Source: Natronolimnobius sp. AArcel1 (lineage in GTDB: Archaea > Halobacteriota > Halobacteria > Halobacteriales > Natrialbaceae). Taken from it: 64,000 nt of DNA. Below are positions 1-1,613 of this stretch, piece by piece; position 1 is the stretch's first letter; each line of letters begins with the position of its first letter. Position numbers and translations under genes: made by a program. The stretch spans positions 1 to 64,000 of the forward strand of contig NZ_JAAKXY010000001.1 of NCBI RefSeq assembly GCF_011043775.1, read 5' to 3'. The notes below the pieces were generated by a model that was not told the origin of the DNA, made no database searches, and saw only the letters and a list, made by a program, of their open reading frames with translations.

Positions 1-116
1 GACAACTCCAAGCCGCTCTCAGCAACCGCTTCTTTGAGTCACTCGACGATCTTACAACGGCGATTGATACAGCTCTTGACCAGCTCTCTGTACCAGAAGT
101 GAGTAATTATTTCTAA
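1..116 (+). CDS. IS630-family-like transposase, C-terminal end only
   Basis: An open frame enters from the left edge (first full codon at base 3) and stops at TAA 114-116, giving about 37 residues that end in LSVPEVSNYF. This ending resembles the C-terminus of haloarchaeal IS630-family transposases. Only the tail is visible, so catalytic DDE residues cannot be checked and the element could be intact to the left. The terminal inverted repeat of the element would lie in the next few dozen bases (AT-rich, about 117-135), but I cannot define it without the other end. Confidence 0.6.
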   Translation, partial: QLQAALSNRFFESLDDLTTAIDTALDQLSVPEVSNYF

Positions 117-140
117 CTCCTACTATAATTCAATCCGCAG

Positions 141-165
141 TTTCACTCTGCAAGCGGTGTCCCCC
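141..165 (+). repeat. ORB-like repeat upstream of orc
   Basis: The stretch starts with TTTCACTCTG, has an A-rich centre and ends in GGTGT followed by a run of five C. A near copy in the same orientation lies just after the orc gene (1588-1613). Origin recognition boxes in haloarchaea flank orc genes and are bound by the adjacent Orc protein. Assignment as an ORB is by position and by the repeat pair, not by a match to a known consensus. Confidence 0.45.
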
Positions 166-270
166 GTTTGACGTACTATGCGCACTCTCCACCGTTGGCC
201 TTCGTCTCGAGTCTTTATCAGTCTGCATTGCATCGATGATATTATAATACACGTCCGCGAGGATGTGGAT

Positions 271-1557
271 ATGTCCGAGCAGGCTGGTGGGGATCCGTTG
301 TTCCAGTCCCACGATCCGATCTTCAATCGGAAAGAACTGCTTCACGTTGGCCACGTTCCCGAGGAAGATCGCATCGTCGGGCGCGACGACGAGATTCAGT
401 CCGTCGCGGCCGAAGTCGGGGCGATTACGCGTGGCGATCCACCGAACAACGTGATGATCTACGGGAAAACTGGGACCGGAAAGAGTCTCATTTCCCGCCA
501 CGTCGCGACGCGAGCACAGGATGCCGCCCGGAGCAACGACATCGATTGTGGCGTCCTCTACGTTGATTGTTCCGAAGCCAACACAGAGACGCGAGCTACC
601 CGTCAACTCGCACTTAGCCTGAAAGAAGAGACTGGCTACGAGGAACACATTCCGCTTCGTGGCGTTGGGACGATGGAATACTACCAGCACATCTGGGGAA
701 TTCTCCAGCAATGTTTCGACGCCATCGTCGTCATCTTAGACGAGATCGACAAACTCGACAACAGTAACATCTTGATGCAACTCTCGCGCGCTCGAGAGGC
801 CCAGAAGACCGACGCCTACATCGGCGTCATTGGAATCAGTAACAAGATTCAATACCGCGAAACCTTAGACGAGCGCATCGACAGCAGTTTTGGCCATCGC
901 GAACTCTTCTTCCATCCCTACGACGCCTCCCAACTGCGTGAGATCATGCGCAACCGTGAGGATGCCTTCCAGCCATCCGTCCTCGAGGACGGAACAATCG
1001 AACTCTGTGCGGCACTCGCCGCGAAGAAACACGGTGACGCCCGCAAGGCAATCGAGATTCTGAAAGAAGCGGGTGAACTTGCGCGACGAACCGATTCCAA
1101 ACTCGTCGCCGAAGATCATATCCAGCAGGCCCAGGAGGTCGCCGAAATCAACCGCATCGAGGAACTCACGAGCGGGGCGACAGTTCATGCAAAACTCGCT
1201 CTCTACGCGCTCGCAAGTCGCATCATCACTGGCGACCGTGAGACGTACAAGACTCGCGAGATCTTCGAGCGCTATGTCAGCATCTGCGAACTGGTCGCAA
1301 ACGATCCGATCACCGAGAACGGGCTCTACCGCCAACTCAAAGAACAGGCCTTCCTCGGCGTCATCGAATCCGAAAAGACCGGCGGCGGCCGCTCGCAGGG
1401 CAGCTATCTCCTGCATCGGCTCGTCACTGATCCAAAACACATCGTCAAAGCCGTTCGCCGAGACTCCTCGCTCGAGGACCTGCCGACGTATGACCACCTC
1501 GTCGAACGGAGTAACGAACTCCAGAATCGCGACGCTGACCTGTCGACGTTCTCCTAA
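271..1557 (+). CDS. Orc1/Cdc6 family replication initiator
   Basis: This is a 428-residue AAA+ initiator of the archaeal Orc1/Cdc6 family, which binds origin repeats and recruits the MCM helicase. The P-loop GKTGTGKS is at residues 65-72, the Walker B VILDEID at about 154-160, and a sensor-1 ISNK at 189-192. The C-terminal third, rich in basic and short helical stretches, fits the winged-helix DNA-binding domain. The open frame extends upstream to 178, but that part is atypical in composition; the acidic start at 271 (MSEQAGGD) places the conserved HVPEEDRIVGRDDEI segment at the usual distance from the N-terminus. Haloarchaea carry many orc paralogues, and only some mark active origins. The flanking repeats at 141-165 and 1588-1613 make this one a candidate origin-linked copy. 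Confidence 0.93.
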   Translation: MSEQAGGDPLFQSHDPIFNRKELLHVGHVPEEDRIVGRDDEIQSVAAEVGAITRGDPPNNVMIYGKTGTGKSLISRHVATRAQDAARSNDIDCGVLYVDCSEANTETRATRQLALSLKEETGYEEHIPLRGVGTMEYYQHIWGILQQCFDAIVVILDEIDKLDNSNILMQLSRAREAQKTDAYIGVIGISNKIQYRETLDERIDSSFGHRELFFHPYDASQLREIMRNREDAFQPSVLEDGTIELCAALAAKKHGDARKAIEILKEAGELARRTDSKLVAEDHIQQAQEVAEINRIEELTSGATVHAKLALYALASRIITGDRETYKTREIFERYVSICELVANDPITENGLYRQLKEQAFLGVIESEKTGGGRSQGSYLLHRLVTDPKHIVKAVRRDSSLEDLPTYDHLVERSNELQNRDADLSTFS

Positions 1558-1587
1558 CGTCTGTCTCCCCCACACGCCGTCGGGCTG

Positions 1588-1613
1588 TTTTCACTCTGAA
1601 CAAGGGGTGTGGG
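1588..1613 (+). repeat. ORB-like repeat downstream of orc
   Basis: This shares TTTCACTCTG and a following GGTGT with the repeat at 141-165, with two extra bases between the blocks. Its GTGTGGG end can pair with CCCACAC about 35 bases upstream (1568-1575), so the site also lies within a loose inverted repeat just after the orc stop codon. Confidence 0.4.

Follow-up and report, generated by a model that had tools for sequence, protein, structure and literature searches.

Families of Orc/Cdc6 initiator proteins and types of ORB were found to be linked in a published survey of haloarchaeal origins (PMC3528665). Some of the origins predicted in these organisms are dormant (PMC3528665, PMC3936714), and at Haloarcula hispanica oriC3-cdc6D a transposase insertion has been linked to loss of function (PMC4441112). 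ORBs can also lie behind an initiator gene: 11 of them, proposed to titrate the initiator, form oriC2D behind H. hispanica cdc6E, and the counterpart of oriC2D in Halorubrum lacusprofundi has 3 (PMC3936714).

Here we describe a locus at the start of a 64-kb stretch (the window) of the draft genome of Natronolimnobius sp. AArcel1, in which an orc1/cdc6 gene stands between ORB-like repeats. We consider it highly probable, from sequence comparison, that this is the initiator end of a family of orc-adjacent chromosomal origins found mainly in Natrialbaceae, the core of the origin lying on a second contig, C11, beyond an insertion sequence (IS). The origin would be of a known kind. Feedback through a half-ORB in the initiator's promoter, which the same comparison points to, is apparently unreported in haloarchaea, at least in those parts of the published accounts that we could draw on.

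Results

The orc1/cdc6 initiator gene occupies positions 271..1557 on the + strand and encodes a protein of 428 aa with intact AAA+, lid and winged-helix domains. The product matches TIGR02928 (385.9 bits), Cdc6_lid and Cdc6_C, as well as PDB entries 2qby and 2v1u, and orthologs in the same family are 84–94% identical. A start codon at 178 was ruled out by homology, the real start being at 271. A TATA box recognised by its sequence, TATTATAATA, is found at 240..249 (+), approximately 27 bp 5' of the start codon, which is the distance expected for a leaderless transcript. Within 1635–2850, convergent with orc and 77 bp away from it, lies a small multidrug-export-like gene (PF06695). Many relatives have a second, distant glutamate dehydrogenase gene behind orc; it is absent here.

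The first-pass annotation had drawn attention to a pair of repeats, at 141–165 and 1588–1613, each with a GGTGT block as its second part. Both repeats exist: exact copies of TTTCACTCTG are found at 141–150 and 1589–1598, on the + strand in each case, and they are the sole perfect matches in 64 kb. However, the two are unequal and the spacing of the block differs between them. We built a 22-bp ORB matrix on 130 sites upstream of the gene in relatives (consensus TTTCACTCTGAACGAGGGGTGG, 33.5 bits). Under this matrix, the copy at 1589 scores 38.9 bits and the copy at 141 scores 16.5 bits; no other site exceeded 2 bits in the 72 kb of the same genome that were scanned. The G-string is intact in the copy at 1589 but broken (CAAGCGGTGT) in the copy at 141. 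The latter ORB, TTTCACTCTGCAAGCGGTGTCC (141..162, +), lies at −130 from the orc start; corresponding sites are found at −123 in L169 and L170, which are the closest relatives, and at −132 to −135 in L030, L036 and L037. By its score and position, the left repeat is a weak, gene-proximal accessory ORB of a larger array. The motif TCA[CG]TCTG occurs in the window at 143, 218 and 1591 only, on one strand and always at the orc locus. The repeats had also been placed in AT-containing intergenic DNA, a description that does not fit the downstream gap (1558–1634), which is 65% GC.

The genome-wide tests for the ORB were pattern searches. With zero mismatches allowed, TCACTCTGNANNNGGGGTG has four copies in the 4.56-Mb genome, one at C1:1591, on the window's own contig, and three on C11 (206−, 512+ and 675+). 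Matches to the ORB in this genome are confined to these two contigs. An inverted pair of ORBs with G-string is absent from the window taken alone.

The first base of the window is a contig end and lies inside an IS630-family element. Positions 1..127 (+) represent the right end of this ISNpe3-like element and include the C-terminus of the transposase (SVPEVSNYF followed by a stop, frame 3 translation), a terminal inverted repeat and, at 126–127, the TA target duplication. Haloarchaeal plasmids carry IS630-family copies that are 83–93% identical to this sequence, and several of these copies are annotated as IS630 transposase. Transposase similarity, terminal inverted repeats and TA duplication all place the element in this family; its middle is missing from the assembly here. 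The length of the insertion, ~1.05 kb, is taken from the element's relatives, for which both ends can be found in one record (e.g., Halostagnicola larsenii 178088–179142); a partial IS match at C3:108551 provided no full-length copy to measure.

At its start, contig C11 has a left end of this IS type. In all, the genome contains three left ends (C11, C6 and C7) and three right ends (C1, C9 and C16), with common CTATAGTA termini and a TA target. Joining the C6 and C9 flanks without the IS restores a single continuous reading frame, the product being judged one gene by eye and not by family search; hence, the partner of C11 is either C1 or C16. This second copy of the IS, at the C6–C9 junction (G000), interrupts an apparent conserved haloarchaeal gene of the winged-helix type. 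The core on C11 is neighboured by a glutamate dehydrogenase gene and a citE-like lyase gene, and in approximately 23 relatives these two genes are found directly upstream of the orthologous orc. What are neighbours in the relatives are separated in this strain by the IS and the contig break. A BLAST search with the joined empty site returned no alignment across the junction owing to intergenic divergence, and ORB spacing was used instead. From the TA duplication, the gene order in the ~23 relatives, an ORB spacing within 3 bp of that in Halopiger djelfimassiliensis (L030) and the exclusion of one rival pairing, we infer that C11 joins C1 via one IS copy, with the strong proximal ORB on one side of it and the weak ORB at 141 on the other.

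C11 carries five ORBs of the window's type in an inverted arrangement (205−, 510+, 602−, 673+ and 753+), three of which score 33.9–40.4 bits. Between the inverted ORBs sits an AT-rich stretch: C11:351–450 is 30% GC and the best 100-bp window 28%, the overall figure for C11 being 59.5%. Measured from the orc start in the joined layout without the IS, the order is −793(−), −713(−), −642(+), −550(−), AT-rich stretch, −245(+), −130(+, weak), orc and +1318(+). In L030, the corresponding positions are −918(−), −727(−), −664(+), −588(−), −242(+) and −132(+, weak). L169 and L170, whose Orc proteins are the closest (94% and 93% identical), share this six-ORB pattern (−−+−++) and lack an insertion at that place, and the upstream strand patterns −−+−+ and −+−+ are found in 28 of 38 relatives. 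Several features of a haloarchaeal origin are thus present: an intact orc, inverted ORBs with G-string (on C11), an AT-rich element (on C11) and an ORB type linked to the Orc. The window would hold the initiator gene and the edge of an otherwise ordinary haloarchaeal origin, the core of which was split off onto C11 by an assembly break that the IS presumably caused.

GC skew shows no organised change in C11, in C1:1–400000 or in 60 windows of the Natronorubrum bangense chromosome, and is uninformative either way. In N. bangense, 13.3 kb around the origin are 100% identical on the chromosome and on an 828-kb plasmid, in inverted orientation (L040, NZ_CP031305.1; L041, NZ_CP031306.1), and twin weak matches occur at C1:56060 and C2:301743. 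This suggests a duplicated block of at least ~238 kb, be it real or an assembly artefact.

An ortholog of the Orc protein was found in 44 of the 101 Natrialbaceae genomes sampled. All 44 contain the ORB, as opposed to only 3 of the 57 genomes that have no ortholog, and in two of these 3 the match has the GGACGAG form that belongs to a sister Orc family. Of the 101 genomes, 47 contain the close pattern TTTCASTCTGNANNNGGGGTG and none a reversed-pattern control. The sister family is ~53% identical and has its own ORB, TTACACTCTGGACGAGGGGTGT. Judging from these distributions, the ORB type travels with its Orc family, in agreement with the published survey (PMC3528665); a literature text search for the ORB sequence itself found no paper. 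The idea of an origin with its own ORB type, originally assigned to positions 141–1613, therefore holds for the ORB, which is unique to the locus within the genome and associated with the Orc (44/44 versus 3/57), but not for the place, the core being on C11. The patchy presence of the ortholog speaks against orthology to the universal Cdc6-1/Cdc6A of oriC1, and the entire Orc family is missing from G021, the only other congener in the sample. Genome G077 has a lone perfect ORB (C1:425963) and no ortholog, and G062 has an ortholog match over residues 1–286 only (C31:14372–15229); one could envision these as stages of origin loss.

A third site, overlooked in the first reading, immediately precedes the TATA box at 216..225 (+), 55 bp 5' of the orc start. 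It is a half-ORB, TATCAGTCTG, with no G-string. The TTTAT(A/T)A motif of the TATA box is conserved in relatives at the same spacing from this half-ORB. TATCAGTCTG is present in 35 of the 38 family loci, every time at −55 or −56, and has no further copy in 490 kb. The sister family has a version of its own, TACACTCT, which adjoins the TATA box at 16 of 16 loci. Since the box in each family's promoter matches the ORB type of that family's initiator, Orc probably autoregulates via the half-ORB. We would give about even chances to the broader proposal that at least two haloarchaeal Orc families autoregulate through a half-ORB without G-string at the TATA box, with an oriented downstream ORB as a third tier of control in the present family.

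The downstream ORB, TTTCACTCTGAACAAGGGGTGTGGG (1589..1613, +), begins 31 bp 3' of the orc stop, in the 77-bp gap between the convergent genes. An ORB on the + strand follows orc in the window and in all 38 relatives, usually at less than 400 bp; insertions have displaced it by 1.3–2.6 kb in L042, L051 and L059. Up to 3 kb downstream there are 45 matches on the + strand and 0 on the − strand, a count that does not translate into a probability because the relatives share ancestry; none was found in 234 kb elsewhere. In an alignment anchored on the ORB, the flanks are 28–29% identical, i.e., at background, versus 89% for the ORB itself, a value inflated by the selection of rows by score, which leaves the strand and position counts unaffected. 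The sister family mostly has no downstream ORB. This accessory site would titrate Orc or help hold it; titration is uncertain, as a single ORB is a weaker titrator than the 11-ORB oriC2D. In Halogeometricum pallidum (L080), three + ORBs are found 63–200 bp after the orc stop and none was found upstream. At ORB position 6 (L025–L061), C and G variants are often split between the gene-proximal + ORB and the downstream + ORB: Natrinema has mostly G upstream and C downstream, and in Natrialba and Natronorubrum the order is mostly reversed.

Discussion

The best reading of these data is that the origin is functional or was so until recently. It is probably still usable, since neither the inverted ORB pair nor the unwinding element nor the orc promoter is disrupted by the insertion. 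Orc would bind the inverted full ORBs, with its winged helix on TTTCACTCTG and its AAA+ domain on the G-string, open the AT-rich stretch and load MCM. By occupying the half-ORB that abuts its own TATA box, it would also limit its own expression, and the lone ORB behind the gene would be bound as an accessory site. The IS might have altered the communication between origin and promoter; its transposase gene reads toward orc, and read-through from the one into the other is possible. Approximately a dozen other orc/cdc6-like genes are present in the genome. For this Orc family, we found no reports of binding, replication profiles or autonomous replication in the literature.

Dormancy is a real alternative, given the reported link between insertion and loss of function at oriC3-cdc6D (PMC4441112). 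The H. hispanica cdc6 gene in question has one ORB on either side and a transposase insertion, and the locus was classed as a deficient, non-functional origin (PMC3528665, PMC4441112). By analogy, the IS would have inactivated the AArcel1 origin, leaving the genome to use others; an IS sits in the locus here too, and congener G021 does without this Orc family. We nevertheless consider a former origin the unlikelier case, given that the insertion spared the inverted ORB pair, the AT-rich element, the orc frame and the promoter with its half-ORB, and that the core shows no visible decay, with three of the five C11 ORBs at 33.9–40.4 bits. A second alternative is that recombination between IS copies separated C1 from C11, leaving the initiator to act on a distant origin. 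The draft does contain three IS copies with common ends, and the pairing of C11 with C16 remains as an alternative; yet the gene order in relatives and the match to L030 within 3 bp fit adjacency with one insertion, and the flanking TA is equally the trace of a single insertion event, so that we regard such a separation as quite improbable. We can practically dismiss the idea that the repeats at 141 and 1589 arose by chance or relate to transcription and have no tie to replication: 10-mers with one mismatch are not rare in the window (4 seen versus 2.5 expected) and the 141 site is degenerate, but the two score 16.5 and 38.9 bits where no other site in 72 kb exceeds 2 bits, and the genome-wide exclusivity of the ORB and its conserved position and strand in relatives already contradict this explanation.

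The comparison offers a testable rule: full ORBs with G-string belong to the origin, a half-ORB without G-string to the TATA box of the initiator gene, and a single oriented ORB to the region behind that gene. The control of initiator levels in archaea is largely an open question, and these sites can be mutated individually in tractable haloarchaea. Should autoregulation prove true of at least two Orc families, a feedback circuit resembling that of dnaA would be a general feature of haloarchaeal origins. The case also illustrates how an origin that is intact can appear deficient when a draft assembly breaks at an IS.

Several described systems share parts of this organisation. The predicted oriC5/6 and oriC11/12 pairs of Natrinema sp. 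J7 likewise have several ORBs on one side of cdc6 and a single ORB on the other (PMC5350488); the published J7 ARS primers do not match the locus in five Natrinema relatives, including N. gari, and so no J7-tested vector can be assigned to it. As first seen, with one ORB-like element per flank and a transposase insertion at a cdc6 origin, the locus resembled H. hispanica oriC3-cdc6D (PMC3528665, PMC4441112), from which it differs in that the remainder of the array is intact on the far side of the insertion. With H. hispanica oriC2-cdc6E and oriC2D (PMC3936714) it has in common cognate ORBs directly behind the initiator gene. In contrast to the several clustered downstream ORBs of oriC2D, the window, like most relatives, has one strong ORB there, always in one orientation.

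The putative feedback loop recalls the autoregulation of bacterial DnaA, in which the initiator has a site in its own promoter. Sulfolobus islandicus Orc1-2, an initiator-type protein, also has a binding site in its own promoter (PMC9738581); it is, however, a non-initiator damage regulator that uses another motif, whereas autoregulation of the present Orc is suggested by conservation only. The promoter half-ORB distinguishes the present family, as it is not mentioned for published haloarchaeal origins in the portions of the survey at hand (PMC3528665). Overall, the locus resembles the haloarchaeal origins adjacent to orc/cdc6 genes (Wu et al. 2012, PMC3528665). The present strain departs from them in having an IS630 element between core and gene, and conforms to them in its inverted, G-string-bearing ORBs around an AT-rich stretch beside orc and in an ORB type specific to its Orc.
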